From positions 1 through 23,382 of IMG/VR virus record IMGVR_UViG_3300031658_000137: a stretch of DNA of 23,382 nt. The stretch is one strand, 5' to 3'. The notes under the pieces were generated by a model. The model made no database searches. It was not told the DNA's origin and worked only from the letters and a program-made list of their open reading frames with translations. Both the position numbers and the translations under genes were made by a program. Positions within the stretch are counted from its first letter, which is position 1; the number at the start of each line of letters is the position of its first letter. Below are positions 293 to 20,392 of the stretch, piece after piece. The stretch comes from a virus.

Positions 293-454
293 TTATCCTT
301 TAGGGTTTTCTGATTTTACTTGTGCTATTGCATCTGTTACATTAGCATCTAATATCTTTGCTGTAGTAATATTAGCATCAAGTATCTTAGCTGTAGTAGC
401 AATATCATCCTGTATTTGACTAGCACCTGTAGAACCATTTATTGTAGTTGCCAT
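293..454 (-). CDS. Truncated fibre N-terminal stub (53 aa)
   Basis: Complete small gene whose ATG overlaps the stop of the previous gene (TAATG). Its start, MATTINGSTGASQIQDD, resembles the N-terminus of the glycine-rich fibre at 792-1847 (MATIINGDTGVDKVVDG). It then carries an internal duplication, TTAKILDANI followed by TTAKILDANV, of the kind seen in fibre shaft segments. It stops after KSENPKG, with none of the glycine-rich C-terminal domain found in its relatives. It may be a fourth fibre cassette that lost its distal domain, or a short adaptor that still attaches to the tail. Downstream spacing and the ribosome site of the next gene suggest it is translated. Function unproven. Confidence 0.55.
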   Translation of the reverse strand: MATTINGSTGASQIQDDIATTAKILDANITTAKILDANVTDAIAQVKSENPKG

Positions 455-795
455 TAGCCATTACTCCATTCTAAGTTTTCTTCATTCCAATGATACATTA
501 ATCCATCATCTGGATAATTTATTGGTGCTTCCCATGTCCATGTAGTTTCATTTAAAGTCCATGATGAATAAGGTTGTGATTCATAAAATACATCATTAGT
601 TTTATCATAGGTATGTCCTATGCCAGCAAAATTTCCTCTTAAAGGCGTACCTTCTGGATGTTGATTACCATAAGTATTATAAGATGTTTGAATCCACTCA
701 CCTGGAGTTTCATCTACAAATGTGTCTATATACTCTTGGTCTGCTCTAATAACAGTAACAACTTTTTTATTTAAAACTTTTGCGAAATGGCTCAT
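454..795 (-). CDS. Small fibre-partner protein, copy C
   Basis: 113-aa protein of a family often found next to fibre genes in marine phages; function not established. Visible motifs are an N-terminal SHFAKV, then PGEWIQTSYNT, GIGHTYDKTNDVFY, PYSSWTLNE and a C-terminal YPDDG...YHWNEE. It is a diverged paralogue of the proteins at 1847-2206 and 3341-3634, with a different middle region (HPEGTPLRGNFAGIGHTYD). The start overlaps the stop of the glycine-rich fibre at 792 (ATGA), so the two are probably translationally coupled. A chaperone or fibre-tip accessory role is likely from this constant pairing, but that is inference. No signal peptide or membrane segment is seen. Confidence 0.75.
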   Translation of the reverse strand: MSHFAKVLNKKVVTVIRADQEYIDTFVDETPGEWIQTSYNTYGNQHPEGTPLRGNFAGIGHTYDKTNDVFYESQPYSSWTLNETTWTWEAPINYPDDGLMYHWNEENLEWSNG

Positions 796-1847
796 CCTGT
801 ATATGTTCCTGTTGAATTAAATTGCAGAATTGTATCAGACCCTGATGTTGTAATTGTAGGAGAACCTGTTGTAGTACCTGAATATGAAGATGTAGGTACA
901 CTTAGTATAACAACGCCACTACCCCCTGCTCCACTATTTTGACTTGGACCGCCACCTCCTCCTCCTCCTCCAGTATTTGCTGTACCAGATGTTCCAGTTG
1001 TTGCTGTATTTCCATTACCACCATTACCTCCGCCTCCAGTACCTCCTGTACCTCCAGCACCACCTGTGTTTGCTCCTCCGCCTCCTCCGCCACCAGCTCT
1101 AGTTACTGAAGAACCTGTGATACTTGAAGCTAAACCTACACCACCATCTCCACCAGCTCCTGCGGATGCTGCTGAATCTACACCAAATCCTCCTGCACCA
1201 CCACCGCCACCAGAGCTTGTCCATGTAGCATCATTACTATGTCCGTAACCACCAGCATTACCTTGACCAGCAGTTCCTACTCCAGGAATGTGATTGTCCG
1301 AAGCTAAATAACCATAAGCACCACCACCAGATCCTCCAGCACGACCATCACCTTGTCCATTTGAACCATCGGTATCACTACCTCCACCACCACCGCCTTG
1401 AACTGTAATATTAGCTATACCTATTTGAGCTGATATAGAAGAAAGTGTTCCATCCGCTCCCTCGTGACTAGATGTTTTTGCTGCTCCTCCAGCTCCAACA
1501 GTCGCTGTATAAACAGTTCCAACTGCTGCATTAAATGTACTTGTTCTGTATCCACCAGCTCCACCTCCAGCAGTACCACCACCATTTTTACCACCTGAAG
1601 CTCCACCAGCAACTAACACATAGGTTGCAACATAAGTAGTTGGAGTGCTACTTGGTGTTGCCCAAGCATTATCACCTCGTAAAAAGGTAGATGAACTTGC
1701 AGTGCCAGTAGCTGATAGTTCTGCTAAACCAATAGCATCATCAGCCACCTTTGCATTTGTAACTGCATCAGTTGCTAAATCTACTGCTGCAATAGAGCCA
1801 TCAACAACTTTATCAACACCTGTATCACCATTAATTATTGTAGCCAT
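792..1847 (-). CDS. Glycine-rich tail fibre / adhesin, copy C
   Basis: 351-aa protein. Residues 1-70 are a shaft-like segment (MATIINGDTG...TNAKVADDAIG...) ending in FLRGDNAWATPS, a motif common at shaft/tip junctions of marine phage fibres. From about residue 75 (YVLVAGGASGG) to 300 is a glycine-rich domain with runs such as AGGGAGGYRTS, GGGGGGSDTDG and RAGGGGGGG, like the Gly-rich domain family and the polyglycine adhesin tips known from other phages. The C-terminus (VVILSVPTSSYSG...STGTYTG) is shared with the fibres at 2211 and 3644. The likely role is host receptor binding at the virion tail tip. Start overlaps the stop of 1847-2206 (TAATG). Antisense frames are proline-rich artefacts of the glycine codons. 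Confidence 0.8.
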   Translation of the reverse strand: MATIINGDTGVDKVVDGSIAAVDLATDAVTNAKVADDAIGLAELSATGTASSSTFLRGDNAWATPSSTPTTYVATYVLVAGGASGGKNGGGTAGGGAGGYRTSTFNAAVGTVYTATVGAGGAAKTSSHEGADGTLSSISAQIGIANITVQGGGGGGSDTDGSNGQGDGRAGGSGGGAYGYLASDNHIPGVGTAGQGNAGGYGHSNDATWTSSGGGGGAGGFGVDSAASAGAGGDGGVGLASSITGSSVTRAGGGGGGGANTGGAGGTGGTGGGGNGGNGNTATTGTSGTANTGGGGGGGGPSQNSGAGGSGVVILSVPTSSYSGTTTGSPTITTSGSDTILQFNSTGTYTG

Positions 1848-2206
1848 TAGTTAGTTTCCCATATTAGTGTTTCTTCGTTCCATGTATGTAATTCTCCATC
1901 ATCAGGATAAGCTACTGGATTTTCCCAAACACAGGTATCCTCATTTAGTGTCCATGATGGGTAGGGTTGAGGAGCATAAAAAGCATCTCTATCCTCATCA
2001 TAAATATAACCAATACCAGCATGATTCTTTCTAAAGTTTTTATTATAAGAAGATTGTACCCAAATACTCCAACCAGTTAAGTTTGTTAAAAAGTTAATAC
2101 CATTAGTCTCTTGTTCAATTCCGTTACTATCTAGTAACTCATCATTATGAACAGAAACTGTTGCTATTACTTTATTGTTTAATCCTATTTTTGCAAAAGA
2201 TGCCAT
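1847..2206 (-). CDS. Small fibre-partner protein, copy B
   Basis: 119-aa paralogue and the fullest copy of the small partner family in this window. Motifs in order: ASFAKIGLNNKVI at the N-terminus, LLDSNGIEQE, WSIWVQSSYN, RKNHAGIGYIYDEDRDAFY, PYPSWTLNEDTCVWE, YPDDGELHTWNEETLIWE. The same module occurs beside fibre genes in many marine and cyanobacterial phages, where its function is unknown. It sits 4 nt after the fibre at 2211-3341 and overlaps the start of the next fibre, so it belongs to a repeated fibre/partner cassette. It may be a trimerisation or tip-assembly factor for the fibre; this is inference from pairing alone. Confidence 0.8.
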   Translation of the reverse strand: MASFAKIGLNNKVIATVSVHNDELLDSNGIEQETNGINFLTNLTGWSIWVQSSYNKNFRKNHAGIGYIYDEDRDAFYAPQPYPSWTLNEDTCVWENPVAYPDDGELHTWNEETLIWETN

Positions 2207-2210
2207 ATTA

Positions 2211-3341
2211 TTATCCTGTATAAGTTCCTGTTCCAGTAAATGTTAGTATTGTTTTACCGCTGACTCCTGTAGCAACTGTTGGACTACCTGAAGTAGTTCC
2301 AGTATAGTTTGCATCTGGCATACTTAATATAACAACACCTTTACCTCCTGCCCCTCCATAATGTGTAGCTGCTCCACCGCCAGCTCCACCACCACCACTA
2401 CCTGTATTAACAGTTCCAGCTCCTCCAGTTACTCCTGAAGCAGAAACTCCAGCACCACCCCCGCCAGTGCCACCTGCTCCGCCAGAGGCTGTTGTACCTG
2501 CACCACCACCACCACCACCAGCTCTTGTTACTGCAGAACCTGTAATTGAGTTAGCTGTACCAGCTCCACCTACTCCACCATTAGTTGCTCCATTTGACCC
2601 AACGGCTGATGAACCACCACCACCACCAGCCCCAGCAGTTGCTGAACCAGTACCGCCAGCATAACCCTGAATAGGAGATGTACTTGGCGTATTCCCTGCA
2701 CCACCAGCAGAAGTTGTCTGTCCTGCGGCACCGCCACCAGAACCACCAGCTACACCTATACCACTATTTGTAGCATAACCACCACCACCTCCACCGCCTG
2801 CGGATGATATGGTTGTTAAACTTGATGCTGCAATAGAGGATAATCCACCAGAAGATCCCCTTGAAGTTCCATCTGTATAGCCTATTGCGCCTGCGCCACC
2901 ATCACCTACTGTTGCTGTAATTACTTCACCATTAGTATGTGCTTGTGTTGATGTTCTAAATCCACCAGCTCCGCCTGCTCCACCATGACCTCCTCCTGCA
3001 CCACCGCCTGCACCAATAACTAAAAAGTCTATATCATAGGCTGTAGCAATTAATGCCCAAGCACCATCACCTCGTAGGTAATTAGCATCACTTGCTGTGC
3101 CTGTTGCTAGTCGTGCTGTTGCTACAGTACCACTTCCAATATTTGTTGCATTTAGATCTGTTAAAGATGAACCATTAACTGCTGGTAAAGCTCCACTTAA
3201 TTTAGAAGATAATAATGTACTATTCTCATCATGTAGTGTCCCTGTAGTTGCAGGTAATGTTAATGTATTAGTTCCTGCTGTAGCTGGAGCTGATACTGTT
3301 ATAACTCCACTTGTATCACCTGTTAATTTTATACTAGCCAT
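2211..3341 (-). CDS. Glycine-rich tail fibre / adhesin, copy B
   Basis: 376-aa fibre. The N-terminal segment differs from copy C: MASIKLTGDTSGVITVSAPA followed by TNTLTLPATTGTL, a beta-rich stretch frequent at the start of phage tail fibres, then SKLSGALPAVNGSSLTDL and YLRGDGAWAL near residue 95. The glycine-rich domain spans roughly residues 107-330 (FLVIGAGGGAGGG..., SITGSAVTRAGGGGGGAG...). The C-terminus VVILSMPDANYTG...GTGTYTG matches the other two copies. Probably a receptor-binding protein. The different N-termini with a shared tip argue that the cassettes diverged by recombination as well as point change. The ATG overlaps the stop of the preceding small gene (TAATG). Confidence 0.8.
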   Translation of the reverse strand: MASIKLTGDTSGVITVSAPATAGTNTLTLPATTGTLHDENSTLLSSKLSGALPAVNGSSLTDLNATNIGSGTVATARLATGTASDANYLRGDGAWALIATAYDIDFLVIGAGGGAGGGHGGAGGAGGFRTSTQAHTNGEVITATVGDGGAGAIGYTDGTSRGSSGGLSSIAASSLTTISSAGGGGGGGYATNSGIGVAGGSGGGAAGQTTSAGGAGNTPSTSPIQGYAGGTGSATAGAGGGGGSSAVGSNGATNGGVGGAGTANSITGSAVTRAGGGGGGAGTTASGGAGGTGGGGAGVSASGVTGGAGTVNTGSGGGGAGGGAATHYGGAGGKGVVILSMPDANYTGTTSGSPTVATGVSGKTILTFTGTGTYTG

Positions 3342-3634
3342 TATTCATTTTCCCATAAACATGATTCTTCATTTAATATTGCATCTGCATTAGGTTTAGG
3401 CGGAATAAAGGCATCTCTATCCTCATCATAAGTACCACCAACTGATGCATAGTTTTTTCTAAAACTCTGGTTATACGAAGTCTGTACCCAAATACTCCAA
3501 CCTGTCAAAGTAGTTAAGAATGTAACTCCATTAACTTCTTGCTCTACACCTTCACTATCTAGTAGCTCATTGTTATGTAATCTAGTAACATCTATTACTT
3601 TATTGTTTAATCCTATTTTTGCAAAGTGTGCCAT
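3341..3634 (-). CDS. Small fibre-partner protein, copy A, C-terminally short
   Basis: 97-aa paralogue of the proteins at 1847-2206 and 454-795. N-terminus AHFAKIGLNNKVIDV, then LLDSEGVEQEVNG, WSIWVQTSYNQ, RKNYASVGGTYDEDRDAFIP and LNEESCLWENE, where it stops. It therefore lacks the final YPDDG...WNEE...W segment of about 22 residues present in both relatives. The stop overlaps the start codon of the next fibre (TAATG), so the truncation has settled into a coupled arrangement rather than leaving debris. A clear AAGGAAAA ribosome site precedes the start. Function of the family is unknown; it may help the neighbouring fibre fold or attach. Confidence 0.78.
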   Translation of the reverse strand: MAHFAKIGLNNKVIDVTRLHNNELLDSEGVEQEVNGVTFLTTLTGWSIWVQTSYNQSFRKNYASVGGTYDEDRDAFIPPKPNADAILNEESCLWENE

Positions 3635-3643
3635 ATGTTTTCC

Positions 3644-4918
3644 TTATGAGGTATAAGTACCTGCTCCTGTATATTCCATGATTGTATTAACGCCTGAAGT
3701 TGTAACTGCTGGAGAGCCAGTAATAATCCCTGTGTAGTTTGCTGTAGGTACAGATATATAAACAATTCCTGACCCACCTGGTCTACCAGGAGAGCCTACA
3801 GTTCCTCGTCCACCACCGCCACCACCAGTATTTGCTGTTCCACTTTCCCATCCTACATTGTCTAGACCACCATCACCGCCTCCACCTGCTCCTCCAGTAC
3901 CTGCAGCTCCTGAACCACCAGCATTACCACCACCACCACCGCCTGCATAAGTAACAGAAGAACCTGTTATAGAAGAAGCTGTTCCTGCACCGCCATTCCC
4001 AGCATCAGTACTTGTAGCATTTGCTCCTACTGCTGAAGCTCCACCACCACCCCCACCAATTTCAGGAGATGTTCCTGCTAGACCATTACCGCCAGCATAT
4101 CCTTGAACTGGAGAAGTGCTTGGTGTATTACCAGCACCACCTGCTGCAGCACTTGTAGCACCACCACCACCAGAGCCACCAGCAGCACCTACACCACTAG
4201 ATACGGAAGTTTGTCCACCTGCACCACCTGCTGCGGAAGACATTGTTGTGATATCTGTACCTGAAATTTGAGAAGCTCCTCCTGTACCTGCTGATTGAGC
4301 GCCTCCACCACCAACAGCTACTGTAATAACACCTTGGTAGTTTAAAGTTTCAGTTGATGTTCTAAATCCACCAGCTCCGCCACCACCAAAGTTACCACCA
4401 CCAGAACCTCCACCAACTACTAAGAAAGTTCCTGTGTATGGTGCTGTAAGACGAGCTGCTCCATCTGTATTTGGAATCCATCCTTGTGTCGCTCCAGAGT
4501 AAACTAGGTCAGCTGACTCTCCATTAATAGCATAATTAATATTTCCAGTGCTACCTTGAAATTTTAATCCATTTGGATTGATAGTTATATTATTAGTGAA
4601 CCATGTTCTAGAATAATCTGTAAATATTAGTTGGTCACCAACAGAAGCACTGGCTGGTAAGGTAATTGTACATATATTAGAGGTTGTGTTTATCCAATAA
4701 CCTCTATCTGCTATAGCTGTAAGAGTTGTTCCTGTTATTACAGTAGACTGCCATTCAAGTCCACTTGCTATTCCTGTTAATTGAGAGCCATCTCCAGTCA
4801 GACCTGTAGTATTAACACCTGCCTTTGTAACTCCTGCTGATTGAAATTCAATTATTCCAGAGGTATCTGATGTTAGTTTTAAACCATCACTTGTATCTGC
4901 ATTTATTAAAGTTGCCAT
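3644..4918 (-). CDS. Glycine-rich tail fibre / adhesin, copy A (longest)
   Basis: 424 aa from the ATG at 4918. A longer reading starting at 4963 would overlap the previous gene and would not begin with the MATLINADTS-type start shared by its relatives. Residues 1-60 form a shaft start (GIIEFQSAGVTKAG...GDGSQLTGI). Residues 60-150 are a beta-rich insert absent from copies B and C (YWINTTSNICTITLPASA..., ADLVYSGATQGWIPN). The glycine-rich domain follows from FLVVGGGSGGG to about residue 380, including SITGSSVTYAGGGGGG. The conserved C-terminus is VYISVPTANYTG...GAGTYTS. Probably the first receptor-binding fibre of three tandem cassettes, immediately downstream of the fibre-base protein at 4920-5627. 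Confidence 0.82.
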   Translation of the reverse strand: MATLINADTSDGLKLTSDTSGIIEFQSAGVTKAGVNTTGLTGDGSQLTGIASGLEWQSTVITGTTLTAIADRGYWINTTSNICTITLPASASVGDQLIFTDYSRTWFTNNITINPNGLKFQGSTGNINYAINGESADLVYSGATQGWIPNTDGAARLTAPYTGTFLVVGGGSGGGNFGGGGAGGFRTSTETLNYQGVITVAVGGGGAQSAGTGGASQISGTDITTMSSAAGGAGGQTSVSSGVGAAGGSGGGGATSAAAGGAGNTPSTSPVQGYAGGNGLAGTSPEIGGGGGGASAVGANATSTDAGNGGAGTASSITGSSVTYAGGGGGGNAGGSGAAGTGGAGGGGDGGLDNVGWESGTANTGGGGGGRGTVGSPGRPGGSGIVYISVPTANYTGIITGSPAVTTSGVNTIMEYTGAGTYTS

Positions 4919-4919
4919 A

Positions 4920-5627
4920 TTATAGAACCACCCATTTTTGACCAGAAGGAACTGTGACAGCAACTCCTGAATTGATTGTTATTGGACCTACCGACATTGC
5001 ATTACTTCCTGATGTAAGAGTATAGTTTGAAGATACAATAGCTGTATTTTCATACATAGTTCCATTAGCTACAGCAGCTGATGCTGCGGCTTGAAAACTT
5101 GGTACTGCTCCAGCTCCTGCTGAGGTTAATACTTGTCCAGAAGTACCAGTTGCTACTGCGACAGGATCTCCTGAAGTATCATAACTAATTAAGTTACCAT
5201 CTGTTCCTACTGCCATCTTAGCTAGAGTAACTGCATCATTAGCTATCTTAGCTGTAGTTACATTTACATCTACTATATTTGCTGTAATAACAACATCTGT
5301 TCCACTCATTTGATTAGCTGAATCTAATATAACAGCTTTCTCGGCAGGGTAAGTACAGAACACATCACTCGTTCCTGACAATGTAATTGCAGAACCAGAG
5401 TTACTAGATTCTAGTATTGATGTTCTTGATAAAGTTGTACCTGAAGCTGTGTAAGTGCCTGCACCTACTTCCCAGTTATCACCACTAACGATTGCATAGT
5501 AAGTTGCATTAGTATCGCCTATTACAGAAAATGCTTGAAAGCCATCTGATGCTCCAGCTAATGTAACTGTACCTGTACCTGTGGTAGTGGTAGTTTCCTT
5601 TATCCTATCTTTGACGATAAGAGCCAT
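4920..5627 (-). CDS. Tail fibre / fibre-base protein
   Basis: 235-aa beta-rich structural protein starting MALIVKDRIKETTTTTGTGT, an N-terminus very common in fibre proteins of marine phages. A domain with GDNWEVGAGTYTASGTTLSR and VFCTYPAEKAV follows (about residues 50-95), then the repeat NVTTAKIANDAVTLAKM and a segment TSGQVLTSAGAGAVPSFQ typical of fibre shafts. The C-terminal 50 residues (TLTSGSNAMSVGPITINSG...VPSGQKWVVL) resemble a small beta domain that caps such fibres. It lies between the connector genes and the glycine-rich cassettes, so it may be the proximal part of the fibre. The assignment rests on composition and recognisable motifs, not on a catalytic signature. Confidence 0.72.
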   Translation of the reverse strand: MALIVKDRIKETTTTTGTGTVTLAGASDGFQAFSVIGDTNATYYAIVSGDNWEVGAGTYTASGTTLSRTSILESSNSGSAITLSGTSDVFCTYPAEKAVILDSANQMSGTDVVITANIVDVNVTTAKIANDAVTLAKMAVGTDGNLISYDTSGDPVAVATGTSGQVLTSAGAGAVPSFQAAASAAVANGTMYENTAIVSSNYTLTSGSNAMSVGPITINSGVAVTVPSGQKWVVL

Positions 5628-14000: not shown

Positions 14001-14029
14001 ATTATAGCAAAAAAATAGCCATGAGCCAA
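14001..14029 (-). promoter_or_regulatory. Putative late promoter (pR'-like)
   Basis: Minus strand: -35 TTGGCT at 14024-14029, 17-bp spacer, perfect -10 TATAAT at 14001-14006 with an upstream TGC (extended -10). A second -10-like element, TATATA, lies at 13989-13994, right at the expected start of transcription. Q-type antiterminators act on polymerase paused at such a promoter-proximal -10-like element. The terminator at 13901-13925 follows about 70 nt later, then the whole capsid operon. Sequence elements are seen; Q dependence is inferred. Confidence 0.75.
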
Positions 14030-14125: not shown

Positions 14126-14157
14126 ATTTTTCCCCTTAGTATAAAAGAGAGATGAGC

Positions 14158-14892
14158 CTAAGCCCACCTCTGAATTGGTGTTAAATCTTTCTTTACCCAT
14201 TCCTTACACTGCTTTTTGTTGTACCCTATTTCTGACTCTAACATTCTTATTCTGATCTTTGTTTTTCTCATATCGATACCCTGAGAAACTGTTTTACTAA
14301 CGCCCCTTATTAAACTATCCAATGTACTCTCTAAGCTAATGATATATTTTTCTTTGTGATCTTTAGATACTTCAAATGGAACCTGTTCAGCTCCGTAACA
14401 AACTTGATTAAAATATCCGTTATCTACATTGTAACCATGCTTAGCTACCAAGCCAGAGTCAACTTCACCTCTGGAGACTTTATGAAGTCTTCCACAAACT
14501 TGGCAAGTACCTAAATGAGTAGCTTGGTTCTTAGTTGCTTTAAAGGTAACTTTTTTTCTTACTACTGGAATAACTGGTAAAGATCTAACTAGATCGTCAA
14601 GGTCTTTTAATTGAAGTGGAAACTTAGGGTCAATACCTAGCTTGTTTAGTAAAGGTATATGCTTAACTTTAAAGAACCTAAGATCAAAAGGAATATCACA
14701 TGAAATTGAATATCTATCTTCATCACTTAGATCATGGCTCTCAAACTCTTTTGATGTAGCATTACTAAATAAGTTGTTAAGAATTTCAGTTGCTTGCTTC
14801 TTAGCTACCTTAGTGTAAAACATCTTTTGTTCTATTGCTTCGTCAACCTTTGCTAGCCTAGCAGTTGTTAATTTTTCATTTAATGATGTCAT
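14158..14892 (-). CDS. Conserved phage zinc-binding protein, unknown function
   Basis: 244-aa protein. N-terminal half is helical and charged (ARLAKVDEAIEQKMFYTKVAKKQATEIL). The C-terminal half carries a probable metal site: C130-QV-C133-GRLHKVSRGEV, H152 in KHGYNVDNGY, and C165 in NQVCYGA, followed by VPFEVSKDHKEKYI and another long helix. The same C..CGR.H ... HGY ... C.G ... P.E.S arrangement occurs in many phage and prophage proteins of unknown role. It has a promoter of its own (14937-14965) that carries the shared operator, so it belongs to the early regulon although it lies beyond Q. A GAGG ribosome site precedes the start. A DNA- or RNA-binding role is plausible. Confidence 0.65.
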   Translation of the reverse strand: MTSLNEKLTTARLAKVDEAIEQKMFYTKVAKKQATEILNNLFSNATSKEFESHDLSDEDRYSISCDIPFDLRFFKVKHIPLLNKLGIDPKFPLQLKDLDDLVRSLPVIPVVRKKVTFKATKNQATHLGTCQVCGRLHKVSRGEVDSGLVAKHGYNVDNGYFNQVCYGAEQVPFEVSKDHKEKYIISLESTLDSLIRGVSKTVSQGIDMRKTKIRIRMLESEIGYNKKQCKEWVKKDLTPIQRWA

Positions 14893-14936: not shown

Positions 14937-14965
14937 ATTGTCTCAAATCACAACTAAGTTGTCAA
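14937..14965 (-). promoter_or_regulatory. Operator-controlled promoter of the 14158-14892 gene
   Basis: Minus strand: perfect -35 TTGACA at 14960-14965, 17-bp spacer, -10 GACAAT at 14937-14942. A 13-bp palindrome (ACAACT-N-AGTTGT) at 14950-14962 overlaps the -35 and spacer, so a bound repressor would block polymerase. The region is part of a perfect 31-bp repeat of the rightward early promoter at 20071-20101. Confidence 0.8.
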
Positions 14966-14971
14966 GCACTT
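14941..14971 (-). repeat. 31-bp perfect repeat, copy 1 (promoter/operator)
   Basis: Read on the minus strand this 31-bp stretch is identical to plus-strand 20071-20101, making an inverted repeat about 5.1 kb apart. It begins AAGTGCTTGAC and ends GATTTGAGA, and contains the -35 box and the palindromic operator. Its first base pairs overlap the stop codon of the zinc-ribbon gene at 14970-15113. Confidence 0.9.
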
Positions 14972-15113
14972 ATTTAATAATATTTTCATTAGAATTTACT
15001 GATACTTCCAGACTACATAATGGGCATTTATAATGCTCAGTTCTGATATCTTTTTTTAATTCTGTCATTGTATGTACCATACTTTTTTTACACTCACACT
15101 TAGGGCAGTTCAT
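14970..15113 (-). CDS. Small zinc-ribbon protein (47 aa), possible regulator
   Basis: Complete frame with a GGAG ribosome site 9 nt before the ATG. The protein starts MNCPKCECKK and has a second pair KCPLC at residues 30-33, giving C3-X2-C6-X23-C30-X2-C33, a classic zinc ribbon, with a basic/helical segment between. Small phage zinc-ribbon proteins include transcription activators of the Ogr/Delta type and the Mu Com translation activator; this one has the same general build but is too short to place. It is set between Q and the 14158 gene and has its own promoter at 15151-15179. It overlaps the downstream operator repeat. Confidence 0.65.
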   Translation of the reverse strand: MNCPKCECKKSMVHTMTELKKDIRTEHYKCPLCSLEVSVNSNENIIK

Positions 15114-15150
15114 ATCTTAGGGCTCCATGTTGTTTTTTGTTTAACCTTTC

Positions 15151-15179
15151 ACAATATCAGTTTCTTAAATAGTTGTCAA
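15151..15179 (-). promoter_or_regulatory. Promoter of the zinc-ribbon gene
   Basis: Minus strand: perfect -35 TTGACA at 15174-15179, 17-bp spacer, -10 TATTGT at 15151-15156, about 38 nt before the start codon at 15113. It keeps a half-operator (ACAACT) but not the second arm, so it may escape full repression. It begins right after the Q gene stop codon. Confidence 0.6.
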
Positions 15180-15183
15180 CCTT

Positions 15184-15513
15184 CTATGCATATATTCTTT
15201 TAGCGGTTAGCTTGAGAAGGTTCTCAATAGCATCTTGATATTTAAACTCCGAAGCAAACGGCTCCTTCCCATTAAGGTGCTTAAAGTAAAGAGCTTCTCT
15301 TTGTTCTTGAGGTAGCCCTGAAATAATTGCATCCATAATTATTACGTTACGTTTATCACTTTGATCTACCATCTCATCAAAAGCGTGAGTCGAATAACTA
15401 CCAGTAGACATATAGGACACCTTACTAGGATAGCCAAGCTTATGATTGTCAAACCTCATCCATGTAGACCAAGCGTCTAATAAATAAAGGATCCTAGATA
15501 TAGGTAAACTCAC
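15184..15513 (-). CDS. Antitermination protein Q-like
   Basis: 109-aa protein with the N-terminal pattern RILYLLDAWSTWMRFDNHKLGYPSKVSY, the mark of the phage antitermination Q family of the lambdoid 933W/P22-like group (aromatic helix W..W.R followed by lGYPS). The second half, ISGLPQEQREALYFKHLNG, is the sigma-like helix found in the same family. It should bind at or near the late promoter and modify RNA polymerase to read through the leader terminator. It is the last gene of the leftward early operon, the classic place for Q, and its start overlaps the gene before it. A fitting target (promoter 14001-14029, terminator 13901-13925) lies about 1.2 kb downstream. Family call fairly firm. Confidence 0.75.
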   Translation of the reverse strand: MSLPISRILYLLDAWSTWMRFDNHKLGYPSKVSYMSTGSYSTHAFDEMVDQSDKRNVIIMDAIISGLPQEQREALYFKHLNGKEPFASEFKYQDAIENLLKLTAKRIYA

Positions 15514-15938
15514 TCAGTCCCTCCTTCATATACTGGGTTGCACACATTTCCAGAGAACGATTCATATCCCTTTGTTCCTCCATAACTATTATTAGGAAAA
15601 TCTTCTGCCTTATATTTCTTTCGATCTTTAATTTTAATGTTATCTACTACCCCACCATGATTAAAGAAGTTAGCCAGAGCGCATGGCTTAGGTTGTTTGT
15701 AGGCTGTATACTTATTCATTTTCTCGCTGATCAACAACTCACTGGTTACTAACGTTCTGATCACGGCAAATACTGACTGGTAATTCATCCCTATCTCACT
15801 AGAAATAATTGCTGTATGTTTTTTGCCTTCACCAATAGTATCTAAAATAAGCTTAGCTAATTCCTTTCTATTGATCGTTCTTCCATCGTCAAAAGTAAAC
15901 GCATAGCTACTGTCTTGTGCTTCTAAAGATTCTGCCAT
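15510..15938 (-). CDS. Winged-helix-like protein, unknown function
   Basis: 142-aa protein. Residues 22-75 (TINRKELAKLILDTIGEGKKHTAIISSEIGMNYQSVFAVIRTLVTSELLISEKMNKYTAYK) look like a winged helix: helix, recognition helix NYQSVFAVIRTL, then a two-strand wing. The rest (PKPCALANFFNHGG...) is variable and polar, with no enzyme motif. It overlaps Q by 4 nt (ATGA) and follows the nuclease-like gene by 9 nt with a GGAGG site. It could be a middle-gene regulator or a replication accessory. Only the fold guess can be supported from sequence. Confidence 0.6.
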   Translation of the reverse strand: MAESLEAQDSSYAFTFDDGRTINRKELAKLILDTIGEGKKHTAIISSEIGMNYQSVFAVIRTLVTSELLISEKMNKYTAYKQPKPCALANFFNHGGVVDNIKIKDRKKYKAEDFPNNSYGGTKGYESFSGNVCNPVYEGGTE

Positions 15939-15947
15939 AATACCCTC

Positions 15948-16268
15948 CTAAGATACATCTGTTATAAAAGACTTCCATCTATTACCTACCTTAGCCCACC
16001 CCTCCACTAACAAAGTAAAATTTCCTTTTCGTAGATGGGGGGTATATTCTGAATCAGCTATCTTACGCTCTCTAGCCTTCATGTTCCCTTTGGTGGTGAC
16101 CTGAAGAAAATGTAGATCTCCATCATTAGTAACCCCTAGAATATCAAAATTCCATAAATCTTGGCGGATGTGGGCAAACGAATTCCATTTTTCAACTACC
16201 TGCACTAATGAATATTCATTGCTATCACGCATTCGTTTTAAAGTTCGCTGTGTTGGGGAGATAGCCAT
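15948..16268 (-). CDS. PD-(D/E)XK nuclease-like protein
   Basis: 106-aa protein with SPTQRTLKRMRDSNEY...VVEKWN at the N-terminus, then IRQDLWNFDILGVTNDGDLHFLQVTTKGNMKARERKI. The RxDLwnFDil...flQVTt..N...R..KI block matches a family of small phage and bacterial proteins with a PD-(D/E)XK fold. The candidate active residues are D42 and Q56, with Q in place of the usual Glu. Such proteins resemble Holliday-junction resolvases or restriction-type nucleases. In this operon, next to NinB and a Ref-like nuclease, a recombination-junction role is likely. Catalysis is not certain given the Q substitution. Ribosome site GGAGG lies upstream. Confidence 0.6.
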   Translation of the reverse strand: MAISPTQRTLKRMRDSNEYSLVQVVEKWNSFAHIRQDLWNFDILGVTNDGDLHFLQVTTKGNMKARERKIADSEYTPHLRKGNFTLLVEGWAKVGNRWKSFITDVS

Positions 16269-16445
16269 CTACTTATCCTCCAGTGACTTCTTGTGATTCT
16301 CATCTACCATCTCATCTCTCCAAGCCACCATCTTTTGATGTTGTTCAAACTGTTCACTATTAGGTTTGCTGTTAAAAATTCTTTTCCAACTATCCTCTAG
16401 CTCTTGTTCATTATCTGTTGGTCGTCTACTTGATCCTTTGCTCAT
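16269..16445 (-). CDS. Small charged protein (58 aa)
   Basis: Complete short frame, ATG at 16445 overlapping the previous stop (ATGA), stop directly against the next start. The protein starts MSKGSSRRPTDNEQELEDSW and continues KRIFNSKPNSEQFEQHQKMV; it is hydrophilic, with a basic N-terminus and a charged helix. Small phage proteins beginning SKGS.pRP.d are frequent in replication operons, with unknown function. Overlaps on both sides make a real gene likely. Confidence 0.65.
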   Translation of the reverse strand: MSKGSSRRPTDNEQELEDSWKRIFNSKPNSEQFEQHQKMVAWRDEMVDENHKKSLEDK

Positions 16446-16669
16446 TTAATTCTACCCCCTTTGTTATCTCTTATATCGAATGTTCGTTTATTTAAATTTT
16501 TAGGCAACTCTAGGTACTCTTCAAACATACACTTACTGGCTTTAGCTTCTGGATAGTGTAGCTCTGTCCAAGCCAATGCTTGTTTACAATTAACAAAATG
16601 TCCTTTGTATTCCCAAAGAGTCGGGTCAACACTCATGCTTAACACTAAAACAAATATTGCTGCGTCCAT
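16442..16669 (-). CDS. Small protein with hydrophobic N-terminus and two cysteines
   Basis: 75-aa protein. Residues 3-13 (AAIFVLVLSMS) are hydrophobic and could be a short signal or anchor sequence. The rest has DPTLWEYKGHFVNCKQAL and EAKASKCMFEEYLELPKN, with two Cys that could form a disulphide if exported. Proteins with this LsfdPTLWEYKG...C..A......YP.Aka..C..E.y..LPk pattern appear in aquatic phages; function unknown. The basic end (KNLNKRTFDIRDNKGGRIK) overlaps the next start. Export is inferred, not shown. Confidence 0.65.
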   Translation of the reverse strand: MDAAIFVLVLSMSVDPTLWEYKGHFVNCKQALAWTELHYPEAKASKCMFEEYLELPKNLNKRTFDIRDNKGGRIK

Positions 16670-16687
16670 AATTTACTCCATTAAAAA

Positions 16688-17302
16688 TTAAAACTCCATA
16701 ATTACCTGTGTTGATGGTTTGTGATCTATCTTATACCTTTCAGTCTCCCCTTTAGGGTAAGGCAACACCTCATACTTCAATTTACTTCTTAAAACTTTCT
16801 TGTCATTTTTAGTTCCATTAAAAATAACATATCGATGTTTTGCGCTTCTTTTAACTCTTATTGATGAGTCCCCAAAATTATGCCTACTATGTTTTCCGTC
16901 CTTCCCTGCCATATCAGTTCTCTCTTTAGTGGTTCCAGTAAATAAAAAGTTACAGGATTGATACACATATCCAATATGGTTTTTTGCGGTATCAGCATAA
17001 GAAACAATAATTGTTTTTTGTGGGAGGAGTTTAATAGACCCAGAAACTAACATGCTGGCTTGGTTTTTGTTGTTATTCATTAAGCACAACCTATTCAACT
17101 CTAACACCTTGTCTGAATATTCTTTACCACAAACTCCTACACATAAACTACGAGAGGCAGGCATTCCGTATGTAACAACCCCAGCCAAAGCATCCCCATC
17201 ATACAAACCAAAAGCATACATTATATGAGGGATTCTTTTTGCGTAGTGTACATTTAGCAACCAATCATAAGTTTCTTTGGATTCAATAGGAATTATTTTC
17301 AT
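16688..17302 (-). CDS. Mom-like DNA adenine modification protein
   Basis: 204 aa from the ATG at 17302, which overlaps the stop of the HNH gene (ATGA) and has a GGAG site 5 nt upstream; a farther ATG at 17320 would give a longer overlap and no such site. Landmarks: MKIIPIESKETYDWLLNVHY, IMYAFGLYDGDALAGVVTYG, LELNRLCLMNNNKNQASMLV, KTIIVSYADTAKNHIGYVYQS and CNFLFTGTTKERTD. These match the GNAT-like Mom family, whose founder in phage Mu modifies adenines to protect phage DNA from host restriction. The C-terminal third is basic (RVKRSAKHRYV), as expected for DNA contact. Here it would be made with the replication genes. The substrate modification itself cannot be read from sequence. Confidence 0.75.
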   Translation of the reverse strand: MKIIPIESKETYDWLLNVHYAKRIPHIMYAFGLYDGDALAGVVTYGMPASRSLCVGVCGKEYSDKVLELNRLCLMNNNKNQASMLVSGSIKLLPQKTIIVSYADTAKNHIGYVYQSCNFLFTGTTKERTDMAGKDGKHSRHNFGDSSIRVKRSAKHRYVIFNGTKNDKKVLRSKLKYEVLPYPKGETERYKIDHKPSTQVIMEF

Positions 17303-17592
17303 AAATTCTCCAATACCCATTCAAGCATTTCTGATTCCTTGCCGTACTTTTCAATCCAAGTCTTTGGGCTTGTGTGAAATCCATCTTTACCTTGATGGTG
17401 GTGATGGCAAAGCGGCAATACCATGAAATTATTATTTTTCTGGCTCATTCCCATACCCTCTCTAATGTGATGAAGGTTTGCAGGAGGTGGATCAATTTCA
17501 TCATGATACCTTCTGCATATACAACAGCCAAACTCTGACAATCTGTTGAGCCATTGTTTCTCGTCTTTAGTTTTAGATTTTTTTTTAGCCAT
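17299..17592 (-). CDS. Ref-like HNH nuclease
   Basis: 97-aa protein with FGCCICRRY (C23-C26), NLHHIREGMGMSQ (His pair near residues 41-42), LPLCHHHHQGKDGFHTSP (residues 59-76) and WIEKYGKESEMLEWV. This is the arrangement of the phage Ref/NinX-type recombination nucleases: an HNH fold with a zinc site and iHHIr.g.G, PLC..HHqG...H signatures. The P1 Ref protein is a RecA-dependent nuclease. The lysine-rich first 12 residues probably bind DNA. It overlaps NinB upstream and the Mom-like gene downstream. Likely role is recombination or DNA processing during replication. Confidence 0.78.
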   Translation of the reverse strand: MAKKKSKTKDEKQWLNRLSEFGCCICRRYHDEIDPPPANLHHIREGMGMSQKNNNFMVLPLCHHHHQGKDGFHTSPKTWIEKYGKESEMLEWVLENL

Positions 17593-17959
17593 GTTCCTCT
17601 TCTATAAATTTAAATCCATAGGGTCTAGCCCAATCCTGAATATCTTCCTGATACTCAACCATCTCTTTAGTGTTTAGTTCTGGTGTATTTCTAATGTTTA
17701 ATATTTTCTCATTCTTAATAATTATCTCTTCAGATAAAAATTTGTACTTCATTAACTGGTGCATCTCATCTGCTTCATATCCTAGGTAACCTCCTATAGC
17801 CTTAATTAATTTCCAGTAGCGTTTGTTCTGAGCATCACTTCGAGTAAATTTATATTCACTCAACTGAATCCTCCAAGGCTTGCTAAAATCCAAGCCCCTT
17901 ATTAACTCAATAATTTTATCTACATTACCTTTTGTTATTGTTTTTTTTATTGCGTCCAT
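17585..17959 (-). CDS. ninB: NinB-like recombination protein
   Basis: 124 aa, starting at the ATG at 17959, which has a GGAGG site 6 nt upstream; an upstream start at 17989 would run deep into the preceding gene and lacks such a site. Signature KPWRIQLSEYKFTRSDAQNKRYWKLIKAIGGYLGYEADEMHQLMK is the NinB/Orf family motif (kpW.v.i.ey...RS.aQN..yW...). Lambda NinB (Orf) is a RecFOR-like mediator of strand exchange that works with SSB and phage recombinases. The C-terminal part (EDIQDWARPYGFKF) is typical in length. It sits in a cluster of recombination genes, and the right operon supplies the annealase and exonuclease. Confidence 0.85.
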   Translation of the reverse strand: MDAIKKTITKGNVDKIIELIRGLDFSKPWRIQLSEYKFTRSDAQNKRYWKLIKAIGGYLGYEADEMHQLMKYKFLSEEIIIKNEKILNIRNTPELNTKEMVEYQEDIQDWARPYGFKFIEEEHG

Positions 17960-18095
17960 GCTTAACCCTCCATTGTCTAACTGATTCATCCCAACCTAAT
18001 GACTTATAAGTTCTGCCATCAACTAATTTTACACGATAATTGACATCCTTACCAAACAGATCCAACATTTCTTTCGTTACGTTTTTTAAGCTCAT
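17925..18095 (-). CDS. Small basic protein upstream of NinB (56 aa)
   Basis: Complete frame starting ATG at 18095 and ending inside the start of ninB. The protein begins MSLKNVTKEMLDLFGKDVNY, continues RVKLVDGRTYKSLGWDESVR, and ends QWRVKHGRNKKNNNKR, a strongly basic tail. It looks like a small nucleic-acid-binding or structural protein, with a beta-rich middle. No known family is recognised. The 35-nt overlap with ninB may couple their translation. It follows the helicase stop by 7 nt. Confidence 0.6.
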   Translation of the reverse strand: MSLKNVTKEMLDLFGKDVNYRVKLVDGRTYKSLGWDESVRQWRVKHGRNKKNNNKR

Positions 18096-18102
18096 AATAA
18101 TC

Positions 18103-19008
18103 CTAAGAATAATTTAGGCTATCTGGATCAAAATCAAAATTCCAGTGCCCCTCAAATTCATAATGTCTTTGTTTAACTAAATACAATTGAGCGTCTGGGA
18201 TGTTCAGATAATCATCATGACTAATTTGCCCCAACTCTAATCTCTGTTGCTTATGAGTTCTATGTACAACAAAAACATTATCAACAAGATTGGTTATGTG
18301 GGTAGATCCAGATACTGAATGCTTAGTTGGTGCATCGGTATATTCTGAGTTAGATTTTTTAGAGTGAGCCACAACAAAGATGTGAATATTTAAATCTCTA
18401 GCTGCAACACAAATCCTATCAATGAACTTCTTTTGACCTTCATAATCATCCTCAGCAACTCCACACTTCATTAAGGAATCAACGATCACAATTTTTACAT
18501 CAAGCTTTTCTGCTGAGTAATAAATTACGCTCATGATACTTTCGATTCCAACGGTACCTTGTTGATCATATAAATATAAATGACCGTCAAGGTTGTTTAT
18601 CTTCTCTTGGATAAACTCATTACTAGGTAAGCGTGATCCAGACATCTGCCTTAGTAATCTAGCAAGAGAAGATCTAGGCTGTAGCTCGAAAGAAGCTAGG
18701 GTAGTTTTTAGCCCCTTCTTTAATAGCCCCAACATAATCTGACTTAATATCATTGACTTTCCAGACCCAGAAAATCCACTATAAATACTTACTTCTCCAG
18801 GTCTCACCCTAAATCCTTCATGAGTTTTATCCCAAGGAAGTACCGTACCTTTATGATAATCACCAGTAAAGTATTCTTGTATCTGGTTTATATAGCTTGA
18901 TGGATTGTGAATGTTTGTATGCTCATCATTGTCCCTAGTTGAAAAATAACTTTGGATCTCTGATTCGTTGATGATCATCCCTTTGACTTTATCTTTTAGC
19001 GTACTCAT
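18103..19008 (-). CDS. RecA-fold replicative helicase / ATPase
   Basis: 301-aa ATPase. The Walker A motif GFSGSGKS is at residues 78-85, in VRPGEVSIYSGFSGSGKSMILSQ. Then come a glutamate-bearing strand TLASFELQP and the Walker B aspartate D177 (VKIVIVDSLM), followed by HIFVVAHSKK and a late basic segment near TKHSVSGSTHI. This matches the DnaB/Twinkle-type helicase core. It lacks a separate N-terminal primase domain: only about 65 residues precede the ATPase. The primase zinc finger is instead encoded by the gene upstream, which it overlaps by 20 nt. Start has a GGGAGGG site. Role: unwinding at the phage fork. Confidence 0.8.
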   Translation of the reverse strand: MSTLKDKVKGMIINESEIQSYFSTRDNDEHTNIHNPSSYINQIQEYFTGDYHKGTVLPWDKTHEGFRVRPGEVSIYSGFSGSGKSMILSQIMLGLLKKGLKTTLASFELQPRSSLARLLRQMSGSRLPSNEFIQEKINNLDGHLYLYDQQGTVGIESIMSVIYYSAEKLDVKIVIVDSLMKCGVAEDDYEGQKKFIDRICVAARDLNIHIFVVAHSKKSNSEYTDAPTKHSVSGSTHITNLVDNVFVVHRTHKQQRLELGQISHDDYLNIPDAQLYLVKQRHYEFEGHWNFDFDPDSLNYS

Positions 19009-19402
19009 AACCCTCCCTTATTAATCTGACTGCCTTCATTAATCTTTTACGATCCCCTTCCTCTAAAGCTTTTCCTTGAGCAAGCTCTGCCCCAGCAATT
19101 GCAACAAGCAAAACCTCATCCTTTAAACTCTTTAATACAGCAAAAGGATTATATGCTTTTCCAATAGGCTTTAAAAGATCTATTCTTTTTGGAACTATAT
19201 CGTCTAGATCTAAACCAACCGATCCCAAAATAGATTGTATGTCACACCCTGCAAAGCAATGCATTAATACCCTACCATCATCAGCAAACTTAATAGACAA
19301 ACTTGCGAGCCTATCTTCATGTGATGGGCATAGACAATTATAAGAGTTTGACTTGGTTGTTTTACTTACCTTATTAAAGTGAGATAATATTGAAGTGTCC
19401 AT
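18989..19402 (-). CDS. Stand-alone primase-type zinc-finger protein
   Basis: 137-aa protein with the CHC2-like zinc-binding motif of DnaG/phage primases: CPSH (C25, H28) and HCFAGC (C49, C53), joined by the basic loop EDRLASLSIKF. After residue 60 it has an unrelated helical C-terminal half (LKSLKDEVLLVAIAGAELAQG...KRLMKAVRLIREGYEYAKR). No TOPRIM catalytic domain is present here or in the neighbouring helicase, so it cannot make primers alone unless the host primase helps. It may recognise template sites or recruit DnaG. It overlaps both flanking genes, which suggests a single replication unit. Confidence 0.78.
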   Translation of the reverse strand: MDTSILSHFNKVSKTTKSNSYNCLCPSHEDRLASLSIKFADDGRVLMHCFAGCDIQSILGSVGLDLDDIVPKRIDLLKPIGKAYNPFAVLKSLKDEVLLVAIAGAELAQGKALEEGDRKRLMKAVRLIREGYEYAKR

Positions 19403-19772
19403 TTTTATCTCCTCTTTTATTATCTATTATCTTCTTATCTAATCTCTTCTTATCTAATCTCTTCTCTTCTAGGGTACTCTCTGGATACTCACTGGATACT
19501 GTATCAGTAACTAACCAATCCTTTTGGAGTAGTGATACTATAATATTCTTTAAGGAATCAATAGGTTGTCTAAGCCTAAAAGATATATCTTCTATCTCTG
19601 GAAGGTTACCTTTATCCTCAGACCCTAAACACCATAGCTCAAGCAAAGTAGCTTTCTCTTCAAAAGATAGACCATGCCAATCTCGATCATTAAGTAAAGT
19701 TCCATAAACTTTAAACCAAGGCATCGACTTATGTTTATAGAGTTGATACTTATCCCAATTCTTAATCTTCAT
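19374..19772 (-). CDS. Replication initiator / DnaD-like protein
   Basis: 132-aa protein starting MKIKNWDKYQLYKHKSMPWFKVYGTLLND, the N-terminus typical of phage replication-organiser proteins with a winged-helix fold. The middle (FEEKATLLELWCLG...LPEIEDISFRLRQPIDSLKNIIVSLLQKDWL) fits that fold. The C-terminal tail is low-complexity (EEKRLDKKRLDKKIIDNKRGDK) and is encoded by tandem 15-bp repeats. It occupies the position of lambda O, second gene of the leftward operon after cro. A GGGGGATT site precedes the start. It probably binds the iterons within its own gene to open the origin; this is inference from the O-like layout. Confidence 0.68.
   Translation of the reverse strand: MKIKNWDKYQLYKHKSMPWFKVYGTLLNDRDWHGLSFEEKATLLELWCLGSEDKGNLPEIEDISFRLRQPIDSLKNIIVSLLQKDWLVTDTVSSEYPESTLEEKRLDKKRLDKKIIDNKRGDKNGHFNIISL
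19405..19464 (-). repeat. Tandem 15-bp iterons inside the initiator gene (candidate origin)
   Basis: On the plus strand TTATCT recurs with exact 15-bp spacing at 19405, 19420, 19435 and 19450. The last two units are identical 15-mers (TTATCTAATCTCTTC); the one at 19420 differs in the middle, and the one at 19405 is degenerate. They encode the Lys/Arg/Asp-rich tail of the initiator. Lambda's origin also lies as iterons inside its initiator gene. An AT-rich stretch follows at about 19380-19420. Confidence 0.65.
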
Positions 19773-19791
19773 TTAATCCCCCTTTATTTAA

Positions 19792-19959
19792 TTAATCTTC
19801 AAGCTTTAAAATAGTTTTAACTTGAAACTGACGAACCTTTGGTATTTCTTTGTTAGGTCTCTGCGCCCATTTCGATACAGCTTGGACTGAGATGTCTAAC
19901 TCATTTGCTAATTTTCTACGGCTGTTATTAAACAGCTTTATCACTTCGTTATATTTCAT
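19792..19959 (-). CDS. cro: Cro-like repressor
   Basis: 55-aa protein. It starts MKYNEVIKLFNNSRRKLANE and continues LDISVQAVSKWAQRPNKEIP; it ends KVRQFQVKTILKLED. The helix-turn-helix lies at about residues 14-32, with recognition helix VQAVSKW. The trailing IPkvRQfQvkti is the family signature of Cro-type regulators. It is the first gene of the leftward operon, ending 19 nt before the initiator start. The operator palindrome sits in its promoter and in the rightward early promoter, so it is the likely ligand of those sites. No CI partner is visible in the window. Ribosome site AAGGG precedes the ATG. Confidence 0.85.
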   Translation of the reverse strand: MKYNEVIKLFNNSRRKLANELDISVQAVSKWAQRPNKEIPKVRQFQVKTILKLED

Positions 19960-20005
19960 TGGGTTCCCTTTAAGTTTTCTTACCCCTAATTGAGCAAGTC
20001 ATTAC

Positions 20006-20034
20006 AAGGTATCAGCAAACAATTTAGTTGTCAA
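20006..20034 (-). promoter_or_regulatory. Leftward early promoter (cro-replication operon)
   Basis: Minus strand: perfect -35 TTGACA at 20029-20034, 17-bp spacer, -10 TACCTT at 20006-20011 with an upstream TGA (extended -10). A variant operator (ACAATTTAGTTGT on the plus strand) lies at 20019-20031. The -10 is weak by itself. It would drive cro and all genes down to Q. Confidence 0.7.
20019..20031. promoter_or_regulatory. Operator, leftward copy (imperfect palindrome)
   Basis: Plus strand ACAATTTAGTTGT, a 13-bp palindrome with one mismatched pair compared with ACAACT-N-AGTTGT at 20080 and 14950. It overlaps the -35 of the leftward promoter. A slightly weaker site here would let the leftward operon be repressed later than the rightward one. 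Confidence 0.7.
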
Positions 20035-20050
20035 ATAATATCATGTAATT

Positions 20051-20070
20051 TATTTTACTTTATTTTACTA
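20051..20070 (+). repeat. 10-bp A/T tandem repeat upstream of the rightward promoter
   Basis: Two 10-bp units, TATTTTACTT and TATTTTACTA, lie side by side just upstream of the -35 at 20077. One helical turn each and AT-rich, they fit an UP-element-like contact for the polymerase alpha subunits. The match is seen directly; the role is inferred. Confidence 0.45.
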
Positions 20071-20101
20071 AAGTGCTTGACAACTTAGTTGTGATTTGAG
20101 A
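20071..20101 (+). repeat. 31-bp perfect repeat, copy 2 (promoter/operator)
   Basis: Identical to minus-strand 14971-14941. It contains the -35 TTGACA, the operator at 20080-20092 and the spacer up to the first bases of the -10. The sequences diverge immediately outside this block, which suggests a recently copied or strongly constrained control element. Confidence 0.9.
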
Positions 20102-20105
20102 TACT
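20077..20105 (+). promoter_or_regulatory. Rightward early promoter with operator
   Basis: Plus strand: perfect -35 TTGACA at 20077-20082, 17-bp spacer, -10 GATACT at 20100-20105. The perfect 13-bp operator palindrome is at 20080-20092. It faces away from the leftward promoter, giving a compact divergent switch of about 100 bp. It drives the small early genes and probably the recombination genes. Confidence 0.82.
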
Positions 20106-20140
20106 CTTTTCGTAGGTTAATTAAACAAAGGGGAAATAAA

Positions 20141-20392
20141 ATGAATACAGATAACTTAAAAGAACTAATTACTGCTGAATTTGAAAACGATGCATATTAC
20201 AACACACCAGTTATTGTAGTAACAAACAATGCAAAAAACTCAGAAACTTTTTCATGTTATATAGACGCTTCTGTAGAATATAACTTACCAGAAATTAATG
20301 AATCTCAAAACAGCGACTTTGTTAGGGTTGGTAATGACGGAGATATGATTAGGTACGAATGTTGGGAATCTAATAACGCCCTATCTATTTAA
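20141..20392 (+). CDS. First rightward early protein, unknown function (83 aa)
   Basis: Starts at the ATG at 20141 with an AAAGGGG site. An in-frame TTG at 20096 lies upstream of the expected transcription start and is rejected. The protein (MNTDNLKELITAEFENDAYY..., TPVIVVTNNAKNSETFSCYI, ...RYECWESNNALSI) is acidic and has no recognised domain. It is the first product of the strongest early promoter and is followed by a terminator-like hairpin, so it should be made early and in quantity. Such first early proteins often inhibit host defences or redirect host machinery; that role is a guess here. DNA-mimic-like acidity is mild. Confidence 0.72.
   Translation: MNTDNLKELITAEFENDAYYNTPVIVVTNNAKNSETFSCYIDASVEYNLPEINESQNSDFVRVGNDGDMIRYECWESNNALSI

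Follow-up and report, generated by a model that had tools for sequence, protein, structure and literature searches.

Phage genes that are independently expressed from a promoter and terminator of their own, lie between conserved genes and vary between relatives are known as morons in lambdoid and P22-like phages, e.g. the ant moron (definition in PMC2629481). In T4-type phages, according to the account of Arbiol 2010 given in PMC4503421, mobile regulatory cassettes (PeSL), each consisting of a promoter and a stem-loop, shuffle accessory genes through repeated early promoters. The stoperators of Cluster A mycobacteriophages are dispersed, asymmetric 13-bp repressor sites in transcribed regions that change along with the repressor (PMC6550527, PMC9283540), and in Cluster K mycobacteriophages conserved start-associated sequences precede the starts of accessory genes (PMC3203893). 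In lambda and P22, the divergent early promoters carry operators (OL, OR), cI lies between them, and cro is the first gene of the replication operon, followed by the nin region and Q.

The locus described here was found in the window, i.e. the whole analysed stretch of 23,382 bases (IMG/VR record IMGVR_UViG_3300031658_000137; linear, maybe incomplete), which derives from a marine phage and encodes SU10-type capsid and portal proteins. A cro-replication-nin-Q-like block is oriented leftward and a block including a YqaJ-type exonuclease rightward. The arrangement thus resembles that of lambda and P22 in its divergent early promoters with putative operators and in its gene order from cro to Q; in contrast to the latter, no CI-type gene is located between the divergent promoters, and a further operator-bearing promoter is present beyond Q. 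We consider it rather probable that this promoter belongs to a moron-like cargo slot under copies of the operator-bearing early promoter, and that the cargo follows an early timing set by Cro. The cro region comprises the following features:

20141-20392 (+): gene for an 83-aa protein, the first in the rightward early operon, no informative family match
20110-20131 (+): conserved 5' leader (CGTAGGTTAATTAAACAAAGGG region), common to the slot leaders of relatives
20077-20105 (+): P_E, predicted rightward early promoter, TTGACA-17-GATACT, putative operator ACAACTTAGTTGT at 20080-20092
20071-20101 (+): copy 2 of a perfect 31-bp inverted repeat (repeat scan, simulation)
20006-20034 (-): P_cro, predicted leftward promoter, TTGACA-17-TACCTT, putative operator variant ACAACTAAATTGT at 20019-20031
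19792-19959 (-): cro, 55 aa, P22_Cro family (PF14549, 4e-8), recognition helix SVQAVSKW

As had been claimed in the preliminary description, the palindrome ACAACTNAGTTGT is exact at 14950-14962 and 20080-20092 and has one mismatch at 20019-20031, and positions 14941-14971 are the exact reverse complement of 20071-20101. The repeat had further been said to end sharply at the -10; the 31-base identity holds, but not the sharp end, since the 55-nt arms are still 82% complementary and the leader beyond the -10 is therefore partly shared. The repeat and the exact palindromes are well above chance expectation: two exact palindromes were observed versus a mean of 0.005 in first-order Markov simulations of the window, and the longest exact inverted repeat was 31 bases versus at most 20 in 30 windows simulated in the same way. 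Exact matches to TTGACAACTNARTTGT were restricted to these three promoters (reversed control pattern: none). Loose versions of the palindrome were not enriched in the window (17 sites at three mismatches, 16.6 expected); therefore, only exact and one-mismatch sites were counted.

The proposal that three early-type promoters bear one operator-like palindrome in equal position, overlapping -35 and spacer, agrees with the promoter geometry: the palindromes start within the -35 hexamer (TTG-ACAACT-N-AGTTGT), followed by the 17-base spacer and the -10 (that of P_cro, TACCTT, was read directly off the sequence), and this register is identical across the TTGACA-17 promoters. A fourth promoter built in this way, P_slot1, is located immediately behind the Q-like gene. 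As with the stoperators, one motif occupies dispersed sites and varies among related phages together with the repressor; unlike the stoperators, the sites of the window are symmetric, three or four in number and always positioned over a promoter, and no immunity repressor was found. The features of the slot and its surroundings are:

15184-15513 (-): Q-like antiterminator gene, assigned by identity to Venkman gp37 and ctXG6705 Q
15151-15179 (-): P_slot1, predicted promoter, TTGACA-17-TATTGT (TTGACAACTATTTAAG-..-TATTGT), decayed operator with a single half-site ACAACT
14970-15113 (-): 47-aa ORF, slot cargo 1, two CxxC pairs, weak Pfam matches only
14941-14971 (-): copy 1 of the perfect 31-bp inverted repeat (repeat scan, simulation)
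14937-14965 (-): P_slot2 (P_Zn), predicted promoter, TTGACA-17-GACAAT, putative operator ACAACTTAGTTGT at 14950-14962
14158-14892 (-): ZnA, slot cargo 2, 244 aa, C-x2-C motif, phrog_17208/11549 of unknown function
14148-14171 (-): hairpin resembling an intrinsic terminator, where ZnA ends (sequence prediction)
14001-14029 (-): predicted late promoter (pR'-like), TTGGCT-17-TATAAT, without operator, kept in L005
13906-13927 (-): tR'-like leader terminator following the late promoter, similar in L005, L010, L019, L026, L028 and ctXG6705

In leftward direction, the Q-like gene is thus followed by P_slot1, the 47-aa ORF, P_slot2, ZnA, the hairpin, the late promoter and a second terminator. The pair of late promoter and terminator (14029-13906) presumably corresponds to lambda pR'-tR'. 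The assignment of Q is based on 43% identity to Venkman gp37 ("antitermination-like") and 41% to the "antitermination protein Q" of ctXG6705; as a query against the viral contig collection, the Q-like protein gave no match. In L019 (contig G005:12171-12491) and L022 (762-445) the Q-like gene is relocated, and the counterpart of window 15948-16268 still precedes the slot. In the nin-like region, the window encodes a Mom-family DNA modification protein (16688-17320, minus strand; PF25680, 8e-33).

The succession of slot and late promoter/terminator was also found in L005, L026, L010, L028 and L019 (L numbers denote relatives, which were gathered by terminase and helicase searches), whereas in the full-length record ctXG6705 the late promoter directly follows Q and the slot, approximately 1.15 kb in the window, is missing. 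In consequence, ZnA is regarded as cargo between Q and the late promoter. It had previously been viewed as an otherwise isolated gene under control of the palindrome; that it always carries this site is contradicted by the ZnA homologue of L010, which stands under a different promoter. Nor does the operator set reach the late operon: the late-promoter analogue (14029-14001) lies past ZnA and is operator-free. Family searches with ZnA yielded no informative match, and as a single-protein query it found no relatives in the viral contig collection; a two-sequence alignment query retrieved the L010-type contigs only, the genome contig collection gave no match, and the AlphaFold model from two sequences had a mean pLDDT of 45.6, too low for use.

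By its predicted anatomy, the slot appears to fall within the definition of a moron (PMC2629481): a gene that would be independently expressed lies between conserved genes behind a predicted promoter (14965-14937) and before a predicted terminator (hairpin 14171-14148), is an insertion relative to ctXG6705, and its counterparts in L005, L026, L076 and L090 differ in content. It differs from known morons in that its promoter duplicates the early promoter of the phage itself together with the operator, in its position past the Q-like gene and before the late promoter, and in that the promoter is kept and the gene exchanged. The PeSL cassettes, as portrayed in PMC4503421, share with the slot the connection between repeated early promoters and the shuffling of small accessory genes; compared with that portrayal (many copies of an early promoter linked to a stem-loop), the window slot combines promoter, operator and leader in a P22_Cro-type phage, occurs in two copies, has its terminator behind the cargo, and its operator specificity appears to follow the resident Cro.

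According to the sequence comparison, the predicted promoter at the slot position is conserved and the genes behind it differ. The slot promoters of L005, L026, L076 and L090 are 96-100% identical over 45 bp and precede four unrelated cargo genes; the cargo proteins within the slots of Cro type A show no relationship (forced global alignment: 10-22%). Likewise, the slot promoters of L010 and L028 (91% identical) precede two cargos. Between Cro types, promoter identity was 38-51% versus 73-100% for the leader (TTGTAGGTTAAWTAAACAA). Conversely, related cargo was found behind dissimilar promoters: the MDTNRI cargo of L005 and L028 is 62% identical with promoters only 40% alike, and the MKYHIL cargo, present behind P_E of L005 and in the slots of L010 and L016, is 70-74% identical with a leader identity of 100% and a promoter identity of 40-47%. 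The leader pattern matched 22 stretches in the viral collection, all but approximately five of them from contigs of the window's phage family, and nine stretches from unrelated genera in the genome contig collection. Similar to the Cluster K sequences, the leader is conserved, contains a ribosome-binding site and precedes start codons of accessory genes; in contrast to them, it is coupled to an early promoter of sigma-70 type and occurs at few sites per genome. In L049 (569-1397), a window-type leader and a TTGACAACT promoter precede an ArdC-type antirestriction gene (PF08401, 1.2e-8; phrog_7245, 4.8e-20), located directly behind a helicase gene and not behind Q.

Whether the palindrome always flanks cro and the zinc protein gene had been put forward as a check in related phages; in phages with Cro type A it was present at the cro promoter and the slot of every record covering them, with different genes in the slot. 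TTGACAACTAAATTG was found at P_cro of L005/L077, L074, L075, L076, L078 and L079, the Cro of which is 85% identical to that of the window, and TTGACAACTTAGTTG directly behind Q at the slot of L005, L074, L076, L004, L026 and L090 (the records reaching the slot). An exact scan with TTGACAACTNARTTG was positive, at P_cro and slot positions only, in 9/9 records with Cro type A or its slot and in 0/7 records in which Cro was of a different type or not seen (reversed control: 0); the records being related, these counts do not represent independent events. At P_E of the L005-group relatives, TTGACAACT is kept, the second half is weakened, and an extra AGTTGT is present upstream; L076 has ACAATTTAATTGT, and in L005 and L078 the second half-site is lost (TGTTTC/TGTTTA) and AGTTGT-TG-ACAACT is present instead, which makes the exact form of the operator uncertain. 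A third half-site precedes the operator in the slot promoters of L004, L005, L026 and L076 (AGTTGT-TG-ACAACT-T-AGTTGT), where two alternative dimer sites could exist. In L076, the stretch separating P_E from P_cro contains short direct repeats (CCTAGGAATGTCCCAATATAAT; 2450-2515), which the window lacks. P_cro can likewise carry an additional gene: in L005 an 88-aa ORF (2698-2964) is inserted ahead of cro, missing from L074, L076 and L078. DNA patterns of two divergent sites and of promoter plus leader were too strict and gave no matches.

These data bear on the possibility that the slot received a copy of the early promoter because of its strength, with the palindrome carried along and no repressor acting there. 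In favor of such promoter piracy, the 31-bp copy seems to be of recent origin, P_slot1 next to it (15179) is devoid of the second half-site, and for Cro types B, C and D an operator shared between slot promoter and cro region was not above the null expectation. However, operator presence tracks the Cro type, and in the L005 group the flanks of P_slot, P_E and P_cro differ, yet TTGACAACT and mostly also the second half-site are kept; we therefore consider piracy without shared control unlikely. Operator columns were only modestly more conserved than the remaining spacer (permutation p 0.02, sequences related). As a sequence pattern, the operator wiring is established for one clade only.

That a Cro-like protein is encoded next to the palindrome was corroborated by its match to P22_Cro (PF14549; 33.3 bits, curated cut-off 30.2); a phmmer search against the PDB found no relative. 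The Cro proteins of the window and of the L005 group (85% identical) both have the recognition helix SVQAVSKW, at which the other types differ. The palindrome probably binds the phage's repressor. Co-regulation by Cro, however, cannot be assumed, because the Cro of phiKO2 binds OR3 only and its own promoter is not repressed (PMC4997575).

A different regulator might act on the palindrome, either a CI-type repressor encoded in a missing genome part, which would make the locus an ordinary temperate switch, or a host factor. The 23.4-kb linear window may indeed be a fragment, and immunity repressors typically have dispersed operators (PMC6550527). Against this, searches of 18 records, among them the window, and of the full-length ctXG6705 and Venkman detected no integrase (tyrosine recombinase), no S24 peptidase turned up in the seven records examined for it, and in the window clade the HTH_3 search matched Cro alone, with no second HTH repressor above the cut-off; moreover, the 42 bp separating P_cro from P_E contain no gene. 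Control by such a regulator is hence quite improbable, and the absence of CI from this phage is likely, though not proven because the window may be incomplete. Of the single-repressor switch proposed in the preliminary description, the part concerning the missing CI accords with these searches, but ZnA is not the isolated gene it was taken for. Still less credible is a main role of the inverted repeat as recombination site for flipping the 5.1-kb segment between its perfect 31-bp copies (14972-20070), as this segment is not inverted in any inspected L005-group locus, no recombinase was recognised, and the copies are explained as functional promoters. Apparent tandem duplication was noted elsewhere in the window, in tail/adhesin genes (454-4963, minus strand), where genes for three glycine-rich proteins are interspersed with three small related ORFs of approximately 100-120 aa, in units spaced approximately 1.43 kb (repeats D8-D11, D14).

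In the favored reading, i.e. the cargo slot under Cro-set early timing, one operator-bearing early promoter type would leave the cro region in both directions (P_cro, P_E) and would have been copied, in inverted orientation, into the variable slot that separates the Q-like gene from the late promoter. Upon phage entry, RNA polymerase would fire every promoter copy; Cro produced from P_cro would bind ACAACT-N-AGTTGT over the -35/spacer and jointly shut off all copies, and the operator-free late promoter would then take over, with Q antitermination through the leader terminator. Since the slot genes stand under early-promoter copies, the cargo (ZnA, 47-aa ORF) would be expressed early and silenced together with the other early genes. 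Through the common 5' leader, cargo may be exchanged by homologous recombination, while the operator in place continues to fit the resident Cro. The sequences themselves show the repeat, the geometry of the promoters, their conservation according to Cro type, the exchange of cargo and the common leader; binding and repression by Cro, the timing, and recombination as the mechanism of exchange are what we infer from this arrangement.

Morons, dispersed operators and T4 PeSL shuffling are already known separately; unusual is the combination of a cargo slot under an operator-containing copy of a Cro-region promoter with no visible CI. If true, small phages would add accessory early genes with their timing programme intact, the route being to copy a regulated promoter and then to swap genes via its leader. 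The conserved promoter and leader would offer a sequence signature by which such cargo genes can be located, and the uncharacterised same-slot neighbours of the L049 cargo become candidates for counter-defence, given the match of the latter to ArdC-type antirestriction proteins. The co-variation of operator and Cro becomes testable in a phage group without visible CI repressor. More tentatively, and with somewhat less than even confidence, we suggest that in a lytic, CI-less clade of P22_Cro-type phages the Cro-responsive early promoter may serve as a plug-in platform, the cargo of which, some of it counter-defence, would be swapped via the leader; with the operator matched to the resident Cro, a captured gene would at once be switched on early and off late.
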